The notes under the pieces were generated by a model. That model saw only the letters and a list, made by a program, of their open reading frames with translations, searched no databases and was not told where the DNA came from. Both the position numbers and the translations under genes were made by a program. From NCBI GenBank assembly GCA_025355105.1, contig JANYAE010000113.1, positions 1 to 64,000 on the forward strand: a stretch of 64,000 nt of DNA, read 5' to 3'. Shown here in pieces: positions 7,228 to 59,894 of the stretch. Every line of letters begins with the position of its first letter. The stretch's first letter is position 1. The DNA is from Pseudomonadota bacterium (GTDB lineage: Bacteria; Pseudomonadota; Gammaproteobacteria; Steroidobacterales; Steroidobacteraceae).

Positions 7228-9788
7228 GCGACCGGCGCCGGACCCGCATCGCGCGGCTCGCCGCCGCGCTCGCGCTCGCGGCATGGACGCTGGCGCCGGC
7301 GGCCGTCGCCGGCGACGGCGGCGCGATCGCGATCGGCATCCCGCTCGAGCCGCCGAACCTGGACCCGTCGGCGACCTCCGCCGAGGCCACCCAGGACGTG
7401 CTGTACGCCAACGTCTTCGAGGGCCTGACCCGCATCGTCGAGGACGGGCGCGTCGTGCCGGCGCTGGCGCGCGACTGGAGCGTCAGCGATGACGGCCTCG
7501 TCTACCGCTTCCGGCTGCGCCCCGGCGTCCGCTTTCACGACGGCACGCCACTGACCGCCGCGGACGTGCGCTTCTCGCTCGACCGCGCGCGAGCCGCGGA
7601 CTCAAAGAACCCGCTGCGCGACCTGCTGCAGCCGTTGCGCGCCGTGCGGGTCGAGGACGAACTCACGCTCAGCGTCGTGCTCGAGCGGCCGGTCGCCGAA
7701 CTCCTGACCTACCTCGGCTGGGGCAACCTGGTGATCCTGAGCCCGGCGAGCGCCGCCGCCGCCGCCACGGCACCGGTCGGCACCGGGCCGCTGCGCTTTC
7801 GCGAGTGGCGCAAGGGCGATGCGATCGTCCTCGAGCGCAATGCCGACTACTGGGGCCCGCCGGCGCTGCTCGCCCGGGTCACCTTCCGGGTCGTTCCCGA
7901 CGCGAGCACCGCTCTCGCGGCGCTGCTGGCCGGCGACGTCGACGCCTTCTCGAACTTCCCGGCACCCGAAAACCTCGCCGCGCTCAGCCGCGACCCGCGC
8001 TTCGCGGTCGTCGTCGGCTCGACCGAGGGCGAGACGCTGCTGGCGATCAACAACGCGCGCCCGCCGTTCAACGACCTGCGGGTACGCCAGGCGCTGGCGC
8101 ACGCGATCGATCGCAACGCCATCATCCAGGGCGCGATGTACGGCTACGGTCAGCCGATCGGCAGCCATTTCCCGCCGCACGATCCGGCCTACGTTGACCT
8201 CACCGGGCGCTACCCGCACGACCCGGCGCGCGCGCGCGAGCTGCTGCGCGCGGCCGGCTACCCGCACGGCTTCGACGTCACGCTGCGCCTGCCGCCGCCC
8301 TACTACGCCCGCCGCAGCGGCGAGATCGTCGCCGCCGAACTCGCCGCGGTCGGCGTCCGGGTACACATCCAGAACATCGAGTGGGCGCAATGGCTCGAGC
8401 AGGTGTTCAGGAACCGCGACTACGAGCTCACGATCGTGTCGCACACCGAGCCGATGGACTACGACATCTACGCGCGGCCCGGCTACTACTTCGGCTACTC
8501 GAATCCGCACTACGCGGCGCTGCTGGCCGAGCTGTCGCGCAGCCGCGACGCGGCGCGACGCCGGCAGCTGCTCGGCGAGCTGCAGCGCACGCTCGCCGAC
8601 GACTCGGTGAACGTGTTCCTGTTCGAGCTGCCGAAGCTCGGCGTCTGGCGACACGAGCTGCACGGCTTGTGGCACGAGGCCCCGATCCAGGGCATCGACG
8701 TGACGCGCGCCTATCTCGACGCGCCGGGCGACAGCGCGGCGCCGGGCGCGGCGTCGCGACTGCCCGCGCTACTGCTGCTGGCGACCGTCGTCGGCCTCGC
8801 CGGACTCGGCCTCGTCGCGCTGCGCCGCCACGTCAGCGCCTGGTACCTCGCCGGCCGCGGCGCCTCGTTGCTCGCGACGCTGCTCGCCGCCTCGGTCGTG
8901 ATCTTCGTGCTGGTCGACGTCCTGCCGGGCGACCCGGCCGCCTACATGATGGGACTCAACGCCAGCCCCGAGGCGGTCGCGGCGCTGCGCGCCGACTACG
9001 GCCTCGACGCGCCGGCCTGGCGCCAGTACCTCGACTGGATGCTGGGCCTCGCGCGCGGCGACTTCGGCACCAGCTATACCTACCGCGTGCCAGTCGCCGG
9101 GCTCGTCGCCGAACGATTGGCGGTGTCGCTACCGCTCGCGCTCTACGCGCTGACGCTGGCCGTGGCCATCGCCGCTCCGCTCGGGCTGGCCGCGGCGCTG
9201 CGGCGCGGGCGGCGCGCGGACGCGGTGCTGATGGGCGTCGCGCAGGCAGGGCTCGCCGTGCCGAACTTCTGGCTGGCGCTGCTGCTGATCCTCGGCTTCG
9301 CCGTCCACCGCCACTGGTTTCCGGCCGGCGGCTTCCCGGGATGGGGCGCCGGCGCCGGCGCCGCGCTCTGGGCGCTGACCCTGCCGGCGCTCGCGCTGGC
9401 GGTGCCGCAGGGCTGCATCCTGGCGCGCGTGCTGCGCGCCGCGCTCGGCGAGACGCTCGAGGAGGACTACGTCCGCACCGCCCGTGCCAAGGGCCTCTCC
9501 GAGCGCCAGGCGCTGCTGCGCCATGCACTGCCGAACGCGCTGATCCCGGTGCTGACCGTGCTCGGGCTGCAGTTCTCGTTCCTGCTCGCCGGCGCCATCA
9601 TCGTCGAGACGGTGTTCGCACTGCCCGGCCTCGGACGGCTGATCTTCCAGGCGACCGCGCAACGTGACCTGATCGTCGTGCGCAGCGTCGTGCTGCTGCT
9701 GGTCGCCGCGGTCGTGGCCGTCAACTTCGTCGTCGAGCTGCTGTACGCGGTGGTGGACCCGCGCCTGCGGCAAGGCGGGCAGGCATGA
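7224..9788 (+). CDS. Fused peptide-binding protein and ABC permease (DppA-DppB type)
   Basis: One 854-residue reading frame carries two proteins that are normally separate. Residues 1-29 are a signal peptide. About 30-505 are a family 5 solute-binding domain (PNLDPS, FHDGTPLTAADVRFSLDR, ARELLRAAGYPHGF). Residues 513-533 form a new membrane helix followed by Arg-Arg, consistent with the chain crossing from periplasm to cytoplasm. The rest is a complete DppB-type permease: first helix after GRGASLL, the LPGDPA periplasmic loop, and the EAA coupling loop ARAKGLSERQALLRHALPN near 750. The topology is self-consistent: the binding domain would be tethered in the periplasm instead of diffusing free. 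ATGA overlaps on both sides. No frame break is seen, so the fusion looks genuine. Confidence 0.9.
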   Translation: MSDRRRTRIARLAAALALAAWTLAPAAVAGDGGAIAIGIPLEPPNLDPSATSAEATQDVLYANVFEGLTRIVEDGRVVPALARDWSVSDDGLVYRFRLRPGVRFHDGTPLTAADVRFSLDRARAADSKNPLRDLLQPLRAVRVEDELTLSVVLERPVAELLTYLGWGNLVILSPASAAAAATAPVGTGPLRFREWRKGDAIVLERNADYWGPPALLARVTFRVVPDASTALAALLAGDVDAFSNFPAPENLAALSRDPRFAVVVGSTEGETLLAINNARPPFNDLRVRQALAHAIDRNAIIQGAMYGYGQPIGSHFPPHDPAYVDLTGRYPHDPARARELLRAAGYPHGFDVTLRLPPPYYARRSGEIVAAELAAVGVRVHIQNIEWAQWLEQVFRNRDYELTIVSHTEPMDYDIYARPGYYFGYSNPHYAALLAELSRSRDAARRRQLLGELQRTLADDSVNVFLFELPKLGVWRHELHGLWHEAPIQGIDVTRAYLDAPGDSAAPGAASRLPALLLLATVVGLAGLGLVALRRHVSAWYLAGRGASLLATLLAASVVIFVLVDVLPGDPAAYMMGLNASPEAVAALRADYGLDAPAWRQYLDWMLGLARGDFGTSYTYRVPVAGLVAERLAVSLPLALYALTLAVAIAAPLGLAAALRRGRRADAVLMGVAQAGLAVPNFWLALLLILGFAVHRHWFPAGGFPGWGAGAGAALWALTLPALALAVPQGCILARVLRAALGETLEEDYVRTARAKGLSERQALLRHALPNALIPVLTVLGLQFSFLLAGAIIVETVFALPGLGRLIFQATAQRDLIVVRSVVLLLVAAVVAVNFVVELLYAVVDPRLRQGGQA

Positions 9789-10624
9789 GCGGCGCGGCGC
9801 GGCGCGGCGTCGGGCCCGGCAGCGCGTTCGGCGCCGCGGTGCTCGCGCTCTACGCGCTGCTGGCGCTCGCCTCGCTGACGCCGCTGTTCGACGCCGCACT
9901 CACCCTCAACCTCGGCGCGCGACTCGTGGCGCCATCGTCGCAGCACTGGTTCGGGACCGACCCGCTGGGCCGCGACGTGTTCGCGATGGTGGCCGTCGGC
10001 GCGCGCACTTCGCTGCTCGTCGCCGCCGGTGCCGTGCTGCTCGGCCTGTTGCTCGGCACGCCGCTCGGCCTCGTCGGCGCGGCCCGCGGCGGCGTGGCCG
10101 GCGAGCTCGTGGCCCGCGGCAGCGATCTGCTATTTGCGTTCCCGGCGCTGCTGCTCGCGGTGCTGCTGTCGGCCGCGCTCGGCCCCGGCGCGCTGACGGC
10201 GGTGATCGCGATCGGCGTGTTCAACGTGCCGGTGTTCGCGCGGCTGGTGCGCGGCAGTGGCCAGGCGCTGATGACGCGCGACTTCGTGCTCGCCGCGCGC
10301 GCCGCGGGCCGCGGCCCGCTCGCGATCGCCTTCGTCCACGTCCTGCCCAACCTCGCCGGCCTGCTGCTGGTCCAGGCCGCGATCCAGCTATCGCTCGGCA
10401 TCGCCGCCGAGGCGGGGCTGTCCTACGTCGGCCTGGGCGCCCAGCCGCCCGCGCCCAGCTGGGGCCGGATGTTGAGCGATGCGCAGACGCTCGCCGGCGT
10501 CGCGCCGTGGCTCGCCTGGTTCCCGGGACTGGCGCTGGCGCTTGCCGTCCTGGCGCTCGGCCTGCTCGGCGACGGGCTGGCGCGCACGCTCGATCCGCGC
10601 GCTGGCGCCCGGCGCGCGCCGTGA
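9785..10624 (+). CDS. Peptide ABC transporter permease (DppC type)
   Basis: Second membrane subunit of the importer, 279 residues. It has the DppC N-terminal signature WFGTDPLGRDVFAMV preceding the helical core, and an EAA loop LAARAAGRGPLAIAFVHVLPN that contacts the ATPase. About six hydrophobic segments are visible. The ATG overlaps the stop of the fused binding protein/permease, and its stop overlaps the GTG of the ATPase gene, so the three transporter chains are probably made in fixed ratio. It would pair with the permease half of the preceding fusion. Confidence 0.93.
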   Translation: MSGAARRGVGPGSAFGAAVLALYALLALASLTPLFDAALTLNLGARLVAPSSQHWFGTDPLGRDVFAMVAVGARTSLLVAAGAVLLGLLLGTPLGLVGAARGGVAGELVARGSDLLFAFPALLLAVLLSAALGPGALTAVIAIGVFNVPVFARLVRGSGQALMTRDFVLAARAAGRGPLAIAFVHVLPNLAGLLLVQAAIQLSLGIAAEAGLSYVGLGAQPPAPSWGRMLSDAQTLAGVAPWLAWFPGLALALAVLALGLLGDGLARTLDPRAGARRAP

Positions 10625-12228
10625 CGCTGCTCGCCGTCCGCGGCCTCGGCGTCACGATCGGCGGCCGCACGCGGCTCGCCGGCCTCGACCTCGCGGTCGC
10701 GCCAGGCGAGGTGCTCGGGCTGGTCGGCGAGTCCGGCTCCGGCAAGTCGCTGACCGCGCTCGCGCTCGCCGGGCTGCTGCCGGCCGGCGCCGCGGTGACG
10801 GGCAGCGTGCGCTTCGCCGGCGAGGAGCTGATCGGCGCGCCGGACGGCACGTGGTGCCGCGTTCGCGGCCGTGGCGTCGGCATCGTGTTCCAGGAGCCGG
10901 CGACGGCCTTGAATCCGCTGATGACGATCGGCGCGCAAGTAGCCGAAACGGCGAGGGTCCACGCCGGCTGCTCCGCGGCCGAGGCCAGCGCGCGGGCGGC
11001 GGCGACGCTCGCGCGGGTGGGGTTGCCGGCCAGCGTCGCCGGGCCCGATCGCTATCCGCACCAGATCTCCGGCGGCCAGCGGCAGCGCGTCGCGATCGCG
11101 CTCGCCGTCGCGCTCGCGCCGCGGCTGCTGATCGCCGACGAGCCGACCACCGCGCTCGACGTCACGACCCAGGCGCAGATCCTCGAGCTGCTCGCCGGGC
11201 TCGCGGCCCGCGACGGGATGGCGTTGATCCTGATCAGCCACGACCTCGCCGTCGTTGCCGGCCTGGCCGCCCGGATCGCGATCCTGCGCGACGGCCGGAT
11301 CGTCGAGCAGGGCGGCACGCGCGCCGTGCTGCGTGCGCCGGCGCACGCCTACACGCGGGCGCTGGTGCGCGACTTCACGCCACGACCCGCGCCGGCGCGC
11401 GCGGTCGCGACAGCCCCGCCGCTGCTCGAGGCCGAGGCGCTGGTGCGCGACTACCGGATGCCGAGAACGCGCGTCTTCGACCCCGCACCGCTGCGCCGCG
11501 CCGTCGACGGCGTCAGCCTCACGGTCGCGCCCGGCGAGCGGGTCGGGCTGGTCGGCGAGTCCGGTAGCGGCAAGTCGACGCTGGTGCGGGCGCTGCTCGG
11601 GCTCGAGGCGCCCCAGGCCGGCTCGGTGCGCATCGCGGGAGAACGACTGATCGGCGCCTCGCGCGCGACCGCGCGGCGCCTCAGGCGCCTCGTGCAGGTC
11701 GTGTTCCAGGATCCGTACGGCAGCCTCAACCCGCGGCACGCGGTCGGACGCATCGTCGCCGAGCCGCTCGCACTCCTCGGCGGCCGGCTGTCAGGCGCCG
11801 AGCGCCGGCGGCGCGTCGAAGCTGCGCTGGTGGACGTCGGGCTCGCGGCGGGGGACGCTCGGCGCCAGCCGCACGAGTTCTCGGGCGGCGAGCGGCAGCG
11901 GATCGCGATCGCACGCGCGCTGGTCGTCGAGCCACGCCTCGTGATCCTCGACGAGGCCGTCTCGGCGCTCGACGCGTCGCTGCGCGCGCAGATCCTCGAG
12001 CTGCTGCTCGGGCTCTCGGCCGCGCGTGGCCTGGCGTACCTGTTCGTCTCGCATGACCTCGCGGTGGTGCGCGCGGTCACCGACCGCACGCTCGTGATGC
12101 GCGCCGGGCGCATCGTCGAGGCCGGCTTGACGGCCGAGGTGCTCGACCGGCCCCGACACCCTTACACTCAGCAGCTGGTGGCCGCGACCCCGAGCCTCGA
12201 GCGCGCGCTGGCCGCCACCGGTCGCTGA
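10621..12228 (+). CDS. Fused double ATPase of the peptide ABC transporter (DppD-DppF type)
   Basis: A 535-residue protein with two ABC cassettes in tandem, corresponding to DppD and DppF. The first has Walker A GESGSGKS (36-43), signature ISGGQRQR and Walker [13 protein letters not shown]. The second has Walker A from residue 312, signature FSGGERQR and Walker [13 protein letters not shown]. Both sets look complete, so both sites should hydrolyse ATP. Linker about 250-290. Such fusions (YejF/GsiA style) are known. The GTG start at 10621 overlaps the permease stop; possible upstream starts would only extend into dppC sequence. Energises import through the two preceding permease domains. Confidence 0.92.
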
Positions 12229-54732: not shown

Positions 54733-55131
54733 TCAGTGGCCGAGCAGCACCAGGATCCAGGTGGCTGCGAGCAGCAGGAACGAGACGAATACCGCCGCGG
54801 AGCCGAGGTCCTTGGCGAGGCCCGACAGCGCGTGACGCTCGGTGCCGATGCGGTCGATCGCCGTCTCGATGGCGCTGTTGAGCAGTTCGACGATCAGGAT
54901 CAGCAGCATCGGCCCGATCAGCACCGCGCGTTCGACGCCGGTGCCGCCGAACCACAGCGCCGCCGGGATGGCGACCAGCGCGAGCAGGCACTCCTGACGG
55001 AACGCCTCCTCCTCGCGCCAGCAACCGGCGAGCCCCTGCCACGTGTTGCCGAAGGCCCTCAGCAAGCGCGCGATGCCCCGCGGCTTCGCGCCGGGGCGGA
55101 CGGTGCCATGACTCGCTTCCGATGAACTCAT
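54733..55131 (-). CDS. dgkA: Diacylglycerol kinase
   Basis: Small inner membrane kinase that phosphorylates diacylglycerol left over from envelope synthesis. The 132-residue protein has three membrane helices and the DgkA signature [15 protein letters not shown] after the amphipathic N-terminus with REEEAFRQE. The ATG at 55131 overlaps the gcvPB stop (ATGA), so it is cotranslated with the glycine cleavage operon, an unusual partner for this enzyme. An upstream open extension overlaps gcvPB and is rejected. Confidence 0.94.
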
Positions 55132-56609
55132 GCTGCGGGCTTCCAGGTCAGATCCAGCTGCTTCGCCGCACGCACGTCGTCGAGGCGACGCACCGGCAGC
55201 GTGTAGGGTGCGCCCTTGAGCCGGCTCGGGTCCGCCGCGGCCTCGCGCTGGATCGCGATCATCGCATCGACGAAGCCGTCGAGCGCCTCCTTGGCCTCGG
55301 TCTCGGTCGGCTCGATCAGCAGGCATTCGGGCACGAGCAGCGGAAAGTAGGTGGTCGGCGCGTGGTAGCCGAAGTCCAGCAGGCGCTTGGCGAAGTCCAT
55401 CGCCGTCGCGCCGTGCTCGCGCGCCTCGCGCTTCATCGTCAGGATGAACTCGTGGGTCGCGCGCCGGCTCGGGTACGCCGGCTCGAAGCCTGCCTGGCGA
55501 AAGCGCGCCAGCAGATAGTTTGCGTTCAGCGTCGCGTACTCGCCGATGCGCTGCATGCCCTCGCGGCCGACCATGCGCATGTAGATATAGGCCCTGAGCA
55601 GCACGCCGGCGTTGCCCATGAAGCCCGACAGCCGGCCGATCGACGCCGGCAGGTCGCGCTCATCGAGCCAGCGATAGGTGTCACCGTCGCGGCCGACCAC
55701 CGGGATCGGCAGGTAGGGCAGCAGTCGCGCGCCGACGCCGACCGCGCCGGCGCCAGGCCCGCCGCCGCCGTGCGGCGTCGAGAAGGTCTTGTGCAGGTTC
55801 ATGTGAATGACGTCGAAACCCATGTCGCCCGGCCGAACCTTGCCGAGGATCGCGTTGAGGTTCGCGCCGTCGTAGTACAGCAGGCCGCCGGCCGCGTGCA
55901 CCAGCTTCTCGATGTCCGCGATTGTGCGCTCGAAGACGCCGAGCGTCGACGGATTGGTCAGCATGATGCCGGCGGTGTTCGGTCCGACGACATTGCGCAG
56001 CGCGTCGAGGTCGCAGTCGCCTTCGGCGTTGCACGGGATCTCGATCACCTTCATGCCGCACATCGATGCGGTGGCCGGGTTCGTGCCGTGCGCCGCTTCC
56101 GGCACGATGATCTCGTTGCGCGCGAGATCGCCGCGCGCACGGTGGTAGGCGCGGATCATCGCGACCCCGGCGAACTCGCCCTGCGCTCCGGCCATCGGCG
56201 TCAGCGACACGCCCTGCATGCCGGTCACCTCCTTGAGCATCTCCTGCAGCTCGTGCAGGCACGCGAGCACGCCCTGGCCGAGCGACACCGGCGCGAGCGG
56301 ATGCCGGCCGAGAAACTCGGGCAGCATCGCGTACTGGTTGCAGCCGCGCGGGTTGTATTTCATCGTGCACGAGCCGAGCGGATAGAAGTGCGTGTCGATC
56401 GAGAAGTTCAGTTGCGAGAGGCGCGTGTAGTGGCGCACCGCCTGCAGCTCGGAAACCTCCGGTAGCAGCGGCCGACGCCGGCGGCGCAGCTCCGCCGGCA
56501 CCTGCGCCGCGAGCGGTGGCGGCATCTGCGCCGTCGCGCCGCGGCCGGGCCGCGACAGCTCGAAGATCGTCGGTTCGCGCTGCGCGGCGCCGCTTTGGGT
56601 GTCACTCAT
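55128..56609 (-). CDS. gcvPB: Glycine dehydrogenase (decarboxylating) subunit 2
   Basis: Second half of the split P-protein, which decarboxylates glycine and loads aminomethyl onto lipoyl-GcvH. The 493-residue protein holds the PLP site: the lysine in [18 protein letters not shown], and [15 protein letters not shown]. It begins with a low-complexity lead before [23 protein letters not shown], the usual start of the conserved part. ATG 56609 has GAGGAGGA 7 nt upstream. It needs GcvPA, encoded just upstream, as partner in an alpha2beta2 tetramer; that gene carries a premature stop here. Confidence 0.95.
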
Positions 56610-56622
56610 CGGCTCATCCTCC

Positions 56623-57996
56623 TCACGCCGCCCGCGCGGTGCCGAGCACCGCACGCAGCGCCGATGCGTAGTTCGCGATGTCGCCTGTCGTCTTGGTCTC
56701 GGTGGCGCAGATGAGCAAGGCCTGGCCGAGCTCGGGGTAGTCGTGCGAGGCGTCATAGCCGCCGGCGATGCCGCGACGCGCGAGCTCCTCGAGCACCGGG
56801 CCGACGGGCCGTTCGAGCCTGAGGAGCGCCTCGTGGAAGCGCGGCGTCGTGAAGACCTCGCGCACCCCTTTGATCCTGGTCAGTTCGGCGACCAGCTCCG
56901 CGGTGCGCGCCATCGACGCGCTCGCCACGCGTTCGAGTCCCTCCGGGCCGACGATCGCGAGGTAGATGGTGGCCGCGCTCATCAGCAGTCCCTGATTGGT
57001 GCAGATGTTCGAGGTCGCCTTGCCGCGGCGGATGTGCTGCTCGCGCGCCTGCAGCGTCAGCGTAAAGCCCGGCCGGCCGTCGAGATCGAGGGTGCGGCCG
57101 ACGATCCGGCCCGGCATTTGCCGGACGTGCTCCATGCGCGTGGTCATGAAGCCAAAATACGGCCCGCCGGCGGCGAGCGGCACGCCGAGCGGCTGGCCCT
57201 CGCCGACCGCGATGTCGACGCCGTGCTCCCCCCACTCGCCCGGTGGCTTGAGCAGCGCCAGCGAGGTCGGATTGACGACCGCAATCACGAGCGCTCCTTG
57301 CTTGTGCGCCCAGTCGGTCAGCCGATCGACGTCCTCGAGCGTGCCGAAGAAGTTCGGCTGCTGGATCACGACCGCCGTGATGTCCTCGCCTGTGTGGCGC
57401 GCGAGCGAATCGAATGCCGTCTGACCGGACGCCGCATCGAAGCCGACCTCCTCGAAGCGCAGGTTCTGGTTGCCCGCGATCGCGTGCACGCACTTGCGGT
57501 AGGTCGGATTGACGGCCTTCGGCATCAGGATACGCAGCGACTTCGAGCGGCGGTTGGCCCGCACCGCCATCAGGCACGCCTCCGCGAGACCCGAGGCGCC
57601 GTCGTAGAGCGAGGCGTTGGAGACCTCCATGCCCGTCAGGCTGGCGATCATCGTTTGGTACTCGTAGATCGTCTGCAGAGTGCCCTGGCTGGCCTCCGCC
57701 TGATAGGGCGTGTACGCGGAGTAAATCTCGCCGCGCGTCACAATCGCCCAGACCGCCGCCGGAATGTGGTGCTCGTAGGCCCCGGCGCCGATGAAGTTCA
57801 GCGGCCGCCCGTCGCGCGCCGCGCGCTCGGACATCAGCCGGCCGATCTCCATCTCGGAAGCGGCGGGCGGAAGCGCGGTGAGCGGCGCGGCACGCAGCGC
57901 CGGCGGGATCTAGTCGAACAGGTCCTCGATGCGCTCAACGCCGATCGTCGCGAGCATCTGCCGAACGTCGTCGTCGGTGTGCGGGATGAAGGCCAT
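56623..57996 (-). pseudogene. gcvPA: Glycine dehydrogenase subunit 1 with in-frame TAG at codon 29
   Basis: The full gene would encode 457 residues, the normal GcvPA length. From ATG 57996 (GGAG just upstream) the sequence reads [19 protein letters not shown]... to EDLFD, then TAG (57912-57910), then IPPALR... in the same frame down to 56623. Relatives have LFDEIP here, so one GAG to TAG change explains the stop. All downstream sequence is intact and conserved ([45 protein letters not shown]). The only nearby restart is ATG 57852, which would drop 48 residues and has no good ribosome binding site. It may be a true nonsense mutation, a sequence error, or a read-through codon. TAG ends other genes here, so it is not globally reassigned. 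Confidence 0.88.
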
Positions 57997-58034: not shown

Positions 58035-58433
58035 CTACTCGGCGGACTCGGCGAGCAGGCGCTGGTAGCCGCTCGCGTCGAGCAGCGCCTCGAGGTCCTC
58101 AATTGCGGCGGGCTTGAGCTTCCACAGCCAGCCCTCGCCGTACGGATCGGTATTGATCTTTTCCGGGGCGTCGGCCAGTCCGCCGTTGCCCTCGAGCACC
58201 GTTCCGGCGAGCGGCGCGTAGACATCCGACGCGGCCTTGACCGACTCGACGACCGCGCACGCCTCGCCGGCGGCCAGCGTCCGGCCGGACTCCGGCGTTT
58301 CGGCGAATACCAGGTCGCCGAGCGCGTGCTGCGCGTGGTCGGTGATGCCGATCGTCGCCGTGCCGTCGGGGTTCTTGCGGACCCACTCGTGCGACTTCGT
58401 ATAGCGGAGCTCGGCCGGAACGTTGTTGCTCAT
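58035..58433 (-). CDS. gcvH: Glycine cleavage system H protein
   Basis: Lipoyl carrier that shuttles the aminomethyl group between the P-, T- and L-proteins. The 132-residue protein has the lipoylated K66 in [13 protein letters not shown], preceded by [13 protein letters not shown] and followed by [14 protein letters not shown], all at family positions. Second gene of the gcv operon, 56 nt after gcvT and 38 nt before gcvPA. Confidence 0.97.
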
Positions 58434-58489: not shown

Positions 58490-59590
58490 CTACAGCGGAA
58501 TCTGCGTGCGGCCGTGCCGAACGAACGGCGGTCGCACGACGCGGGCCTTGAGGCGCTTGCCGCGGATGTCGACCTCAACCTCGGCGCCGGTGGCCGCCGG
58601 CACGCGCGCCAGCGCGATCGAGCGCTCGAGCGTCGGCGAGTAGCTGCCGCTGGTCGTTTCGCCCTCGCCGGCCGCTCCGGCGTACACCTTCTGGTGACTG
58701 CGCAGGATGCCCTTGTCCTCGAGCAGCAGCCCGACGAGCTTGCGCGGCACGCCGGCGGTGCGCTGCGCCTCAAGCGCGCCGCGGCCGATGAAGTCGCGGC
58801 CCGGGTCGAAGACCACGGTCCAGGCGAGTCCCGACTCGAGCGGCGTCGTCTGGGCGTTCATGTCGTTGCCGTACAGGTTCATGCCGGCCTCGAGCCGCAG
58901 CGTGTCGCGCGCGCCGAGGCCGCAGGGCCGGACGCCGGCGTCGAGCAGCCGGTTCCACAGCGACACCACGTGCTCGGCGGGCAGCATGATCTCGAAGCCA
59001 TCCTCGCCCGTGTAGCCCGTGCGGGCGACGAATACGCTGCCGCCGAGCACGCCGAGCCCGGTGCCGAAGAAGGTCTCGAGCGCCAGCGCTTTCGCCTCGT
59101 CGTCCGCCGGCAGCAGCCCGGCGGCCTTGGCGCGCGCGTTCGGCCCCTGGACCGCGACCATCGCGAGGTCGCCGCGCGGCCGCACCGTGACGCCGTAGCC
59201 GCCGGCCTGGCGCCCGATCCAGACGAGGTCCTGCTCGGCAGTGCCGGCGTTGACCACGAGGCGGTAGCGGCCCGCCTCCTGGAAGTAGACGATCAGGTCG
59301 TCGATGACGCCGCCGGATTCGTTCAGCATGCAACTGTAGAGCGCCTTGCCGCGTGCTGCGAGCCGTGCGACGTCGTTGGCCAGCAGCCGTCGCAGGAACT
59401 CCTGAGCACGCGGCCCCTCGACGTCGACGGCGCGCATGTGCGACACGTCGAACATGCCGGCGTCGCGGCGCACCGCGTGGTGCTCCTCGAGCTGGGAGCC
59501 GTACTGCAGCGGCATGTCCCACCCGCCGAAATCGACGAGGCGGGCGCCGAGCGCAACGTGCCGGTCATGTAACGGGGTCTTCTGGGGCAT
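58490..59590 (-). CDS. gcvT: Glycine cleavage system T protein (aminomethyltransferase)
   Basis: Transfers the methylene group from aminomethyl-GcvH to tetrahydrofolate and releases ammonia. The 366-residue protein shows [26 protein letters not shown] at the start (read in parts), [21 protein letters not shown] with the catalytic region, and [20 protein letters not shown] 59590 has GGAGAT close upstream. The frame is open further up but that would run through the riboswitch and is rejected. First gene of the gcvT-gcvH-gcvPA-gcvPB-dgkA operon. Confidence 0.96.
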
Positions 59591-59631: not shown

Positions 59632-59667
59632 AAAAATAAGGGGCGACAGGCCACCGCCTGTCGCCCC
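59632..59667 (-). terminator. Intrinsic terminator of the glycine riboswitch
   Basis: Perfect 12-bp stem (59656-59667 with 59640-59651), 4-nt loop, followed on the minus strand by TTATTTTT. It begins within one or two bases of the 3' side of the second aptamer's closing helix, so glycine-bound aptamer and terminator compete for the same G-run. It lies 42 nt before gcvT. Confidence 0.85.
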
Positions 59668-59876
59668 TCTGTCCTGTGACCTGAGAGATCAAGCGCAGCT
59701 CGAGCTGCGCCGCACCCCTTCGGTGGGCCGGGCACTTCCGCGCCGGGCCGCTCTCCAGAGCTCGCGAGATTCTGCCGTACTGGTGCCTGAGCGTTTCCGG
59801 GCGGGTTGCGCCTTCGGCGCCGCGCGTACCTCGACGAGCCTTCGCTCGCCAGAGCCGCGCGGTCTCTCCGGTCAGA
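59664..59876 (-). ncRNA. Tandem glycine riboswitch
   Basis: The leader of gcvT contains two glycine aptamers in series. In transcription order aptamer 1 (about 59876-59762) has CGGAGAGACC, CGCCGAAGGCGCAA and AAACGCTCAGGCACCAGTAC. Aptamer 2 (about 59758-59664) has CTCTGGAGAGC, CACCGAAGGGG and ATCTCTCAGGTCACAGGACAG. These are the conserved core blocks of the class. The closing helix of aptamer 2 (CTCTG with CAGAG) abuts the terminator, the usual ON-switch that lets glycine turn on its own cleavage system. The whole 399-nt gap 59591-59989 is thus accounted for by riboswitch, terminator and two promoters. Confidence 0.93.
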
Positions 59877-59894
59877 TCTTGTCGCGAAGCCGCC

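Follow-up and report, generated by a model that had tools for sequence, protein, structure and literature searches.

The window, a 64,000-nucleotide stretch of contig JANYAE010000113.1 in the Steroidobacteraceae assembly GCA_025355105.1 (hereafter the present genome, G000), carries on its minus strand a tandem glycine riboswitch (59667-59882) followed in order by gcvT, gcvH, gcvPA, and gcvPB. Both riboswitch aptamers exceed the gathering score of Rfam RF00504, aptamer 1 (59765-59882) at 53.8 bits and aptamer 2 (59667-59760) at 37.4 bits, and tandem aptamers also precede gcvT in all three congeners checked (G010, G004, and G008). The minus-strand frames of gcvT (58490-59590, with its start placed by us where the family match begins), gcvH (58035-58433), and gcvPB (55128-56609) are open and score above their family cut-offs, gcvT and gcvH each ending in TAG; the preliminary description of these three genes as intact under a well-kept riboswitch therefore stands. 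The four genes presumably form one operon.

The gcvPA reading frame (56623-57996, minus strand) has 458 codons counting its terminal TGA, and is the sole copy detected in the assembly. It starts with ATG at 57996, which follows at a spacing of 3 bases a Shine-Dalgarno-like GGAGAG (58005-58000, minus strand, read directly), and it is interrupted at codon 29 by an in-frame TAG (57910-57912, minus strand), while the remaining 456 codons ahead of the terminal TGA contain no stop. Like GcvPA proteins (NCBIfam NF001696; Thermus 1wyt_A), the frame aligns over its whole length to a relative, and its 409-residue part from Met49 onward scores 533 bits against the NF001696 cut-off of 364 (an intact relative scores 583 bits); unlike them, it has TAG at codon 29 and is not an uninterrupted reading frame. 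A premature stop in the orthologue of a gene that is intact in relatives is what marks a nonsense pseudogene, and it is found here. The draft assembly spans 4.33 Mb over 142 contigs, at 91% completeness and 1.8% contamination, and the window lies on a contig of 102 kb. Predicting the structure of a relative's GcvPA from 22 sequences gave a poor model (mean pLDDT of 68.8, with mostly low values at the N-terminus), which was left unused.

At residue 29, all 107 other distinct gcvPA proteins in our alignment have Glu. These proteins were drawn from 141 matches starting no later than query residue 3, reaching residue 430, and exceeding 55% identity; the set excludes the present gene and includes L173 of G206, fetched on account of a stop of its own. 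Codon 29 reads GAG, one base from TAG, in eight gene copies from seven congeners, and a ninth copy (G006), missed by our DNA motif, has Glu at residue 29 in translation. The proposal that a single-base change produced the TAG in an otherwise intact gcvPA is thus upheld. Glu codon usage at the site is GAG at 61 and GAA at 22 of 83 loci, in a DNA motif search that demands a Glu codon by design and counts several copies of one gene. A P-protein was matched in 51 of 60 genomes (the present genome among the 60), and genome contigs yielded 80 loci, almost all with proteobacterial titles, some of these contigs overlapping the 60-genome search. The Thermus alpha subunit 1wyt_A, whose alignment begins at residue 1, has His in this column, so that Glu is not required there in more distant P-proteins.

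The preliminary description had offered four explanations of the TAG, of which a recent nonsense mutation and a base error in the assembly remain viable, while read-through is unsupported and an internal restart is unlikely. For the restart, the first in-frame ATG, GTG, or TTG after the stop is Met49 (57850-57852, minus strand), 57 bases downstream of the TAG, and Met is common at that position among relatives, as would suit a working 409-residue GcvPA begun there. Met49 is not universal, however, direct reading finds no Shine-Dalgarno-like sequence before the ATG at 57852, and the shortened product would lose all 12 of the near-invariant columns that residues 1-48 hold in the alignment of relatives; 1wyt_A, moreover, aligns from residue 1. 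It had also been suggested that the upstream part would be non-coding if relatives all began at 57852. They carry an upstream PHT/PHS motif, seen in those of their rows that display the right strand (loci on the opposite strand show an unrelated frame upstream), and their starts lie upstream, at the position of the start used here, so the N-terminal part of gcvPA is coding. Restart at Met49 is in our estimation the most improbable of the explanations.

Neither loss of RF1 nor avoidance of TAG as a terminator, both expected under genome-wide TAG reassignment, is seen: RF1 (prfA) is present at 515 bits against a cut-off of 423, and of 36 genes counted, 8 terminate with TAG, 27 with TGA, and 1 with TAA, the 8 including gcvT and gcvH directly upstream of gcvPA. 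This count derives from 45 hand-picked frames, nine of which were dropped because the third-position GC of a rival frame equalled or exceeded theirs (seven near-ties, two clear), and it includes gcvPA by its terminal TGA. None of the 38 tRNA genes typed has the CUA anticodon that reads UAG; none was named as a Cys, Trp, or Ile tRNA either, so the tRNA census is incomplete. A tRNA-SeC gene with UCA anticodon lies on L149 (G000:C138), so TGA may be decoded as selenocysteine in this genome. A pyrrolysine option was raised by an Rfam PYLIS_3 match in congener G004 (L181:2196-2294; 39.0 bits, gathering score 38), located in a 531-aa frame that has no internal stop and is probably MttB-like, judging from the Rfam title. 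We set this option aside, as PylS stays below the cut-off throughout the genus (0 of 15 genomes above it, with weak sub-cut-off matches in all 15). General recoding of TAG is disfavored by RF1, the TAG terminators, and the lack of any PylS above the cut-off.

Read-through confined to this codon, by near-cognate decoding or by an undetected suppressor tRNA, could in principle give a useful yield of GcvPA. It would account for the full retention of gcvPA and its operon; a suppressor tRNA could be missing from the census just as the Cys, Trp, and Ile tRNAs are; and the gcvPA of G206, from the same family, also has an internal TAG. Programmed read-through would be expected to leave the stop conserved across relatives, yet none of the 107 has one at this position, and the stop in G206 lies elsewhere, at the variable residue 190. 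Together with RF1, the TAG terminators, the tRNAs typed, and the absence of PylS above the cut-off, this makes read-through improbable, and the suggestion of suppression finds no support, with the reservation that the tRNA set is incomplete. A related notion, slightly less probable still, is a tolerated leaky stop: some ribosomes would place an amino acid at residue 29, which would set the P-protein output of the riboswitch-controlled operon low while the pathway is retained. Overall there is no support for TAG as a sense codon, and rare read-through is a disfavored possibility.

Apart from the stop, gcvPA appears fully constrained. Among 128 columns that are at least 97% conserved in relatives, the present protein departs at one, namely the stop, while 42 of the 107 relatives depart from the consensus in at least one of these columns. 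Lineage-unique changes in gcvPA (amino-acid to silent) number 4:19 in the present genome, the stop counted, compared to 20:78 in four other congeners (Fisher p = 1.0), and those in gcvPB number 1:17 compared to 14:109 (p = 0.69); at the 78-83% DNA identity of the genes in this five-congener comparison, only old decay is detectable. Since the ratio matches that of the congeners, gcvPA shows no sign of old decay. The ratios in gcvPA likewise give no sign of relaxed selection after the lesion, and a very recent lesion would look alike: one far younger than the divergence from the closest congener would escape the test. By this measure the lesion is either very recent or not real, and the lack of additional decay is compatible, too, with a base error or with a gene that still works.

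In these respects the gene resembles the single-nonsense pseudogenes and polymorphisms described in PMC7918605, having one stop in an orthologous gene that lacks signs of old decay; according to that study, bacterial genes widely carry internal stops, most of which do not persist for long. It differs from the cases there in that its stop is known from a single genome. Within the family, 191 of 217 genomes searched match gcvPA, and nine of about 150 gene rows among the matches listed (a hand count) were flagged for stops, of which two are true internal stops, those of the present genome and of G206. In the seven other flagged rows the aligned gene is free of stops to query residue 440 or beyond. 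We considered an oxidative-damage signature (G:C to T:A) from the two true stops and dropped it, as the G206 residue, at position 190, varies among the relatives read and so points to no single original codon. TAG is the expected kind of stop, since 69 of the 101 stop-creating changes among 4113 possible single changes in a relative's gcvPA give TAG. A single stop in a single gene is within the rate of lesions or base errors.

A base error, or a letter from a minority strain fixed in the draft consensus, would leave the organism's gcvPA intact, and we consider it quite possible, at somewhat less than an even chance. The assembly is fragmented as well as draft, the records of most named relatives (though these are relatives and not the present genome) are titled metagenome-assembled, and the fully constrained frame shows no other damage. 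A study of 126,564 genomes (PMC11017572) concludes that many assembly pseudogenes are errors linked to assembler, platform, and coverage; the present stop resembles such spurious pseudogenes in being an isolated internal stop, in a draft genome, in a gene otherwise undamaged. It departs from them in the outcome of an assembly-quality control, in which frames from the window's contig and 18 kb of contig C64 were matched to congener G010 and kept if their third-position GC was within 0.02 of the best of six. The control yielded 77 frames and 30,610 codons, 69 frames without a stop and eight with one, and no query was split. Seven of the eight stops, with translations judged by eye, fall in wrong frames or lie upstream of or outside a recognizable gene (on the window's contig at 2579, 32552, 77801, 96653, 72164-73051, and 79795-80124; on C64 at 9497-10717). 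The eighth is gcvPA, the lone true premature stop in the 77 frames, so the assembly is locally not very error-rich; the length of the contig also counts against a base error. This control replaced an earlier one of 83 frames, several of them antisense or shadow frames; 12 of the 83 had a stop, and a 78-residue fragment at 87265-87032 was left out of the inspection. A look at 80 kb of relatives as a control met the same antisense and shadow-frame trouble.

What a real stop would cost the cell depends on other P-proteins. Besides gcvPA and gcvPB, the 91%-complete assembly yielded neither a second alpha subunit nor a fused P-protein, in a search that recovered fused-type GcvP from other genomes (E about 1e-50). 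On this basis the stop would be predicted to disable glycine cleavage, as the preliminary description had supposed. Across the 15 genomes of the genus, full-length gcvPA is present in nine, the present genome included; in G012 it is a fragment at a contig edge, and G009 has a fused-type GcvP match only. The gcvPA search gave no match in four others (G001, G003, G013, and G014), in which gcvPB likewise has no real match (best E 2.5e-4, in G001) and the best gcvT matches reach at most 36% identity, a range rich in paralogues. With gcvPA, gcvPB, and a gcvT orthologue all missing from these four genomes, the genus tolerates loss of the glycine-cleavage system, but as a whole unit.

The reading we tentatively prefer, though it falls just short of an even chance, is that the TAG arose very recently in gcvPA, as a nonsense allele of one changed base carried by the strain or population sampled; on this reading we infer that the base is real and the product lost. 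Translation would start at 57996 and end after 28 residues, a functional P-protein alpha subunit would be absent as a result, and the gcvT-gcvH-gcvPA-gcvPB operon would be left under its glycine riboswitch without a working P-protein. Against the nonsense allele, a base error accounts for the same letters, and the four system-less congeners have lost everything, not gcvPA alone. We place the real allele slightly ahead of the base error on the grounds of an otherwise clean contig and of a pathway that is dispensable in the genus. As a sequence feature the codon-29 TAG is confirmed, and biologically it is unremarkable: an ordinary nonsense lesion, most likely either a very recent loss-of-function mutation or an assembly error in one base, and no new decoding trick. 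If the allele is real, it would show a glycine-cleavage operon just beginning to be lost, in a genus with 4 of 15 sampled genomes system-less; if it is a base error, it illustrates that a stop inside a gene of a draft genome should be backed by reads before it is given a biological meaning. Neither outcome would be surprising.

Two further observations concern the genus. The gcvPA genes on G002:C85 (L164) and G007:C285 (L159) are identical but for 1 of 1371 bases; G002 carries another gcvPA on C42 and possibly includes a foreign contig. The present genome has 14 GcvT matches, and the 15 genomes of the genus have 9-17 each, suggesting that methylated glycines are extensively demethylated there. 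One such match in the present genome, at 92388-95576 of the window's contig (L184:8388-11576), is a 1063-aa protein of the sarcosine-oxidase-alpha type (TIGR01372, 1422 bits).
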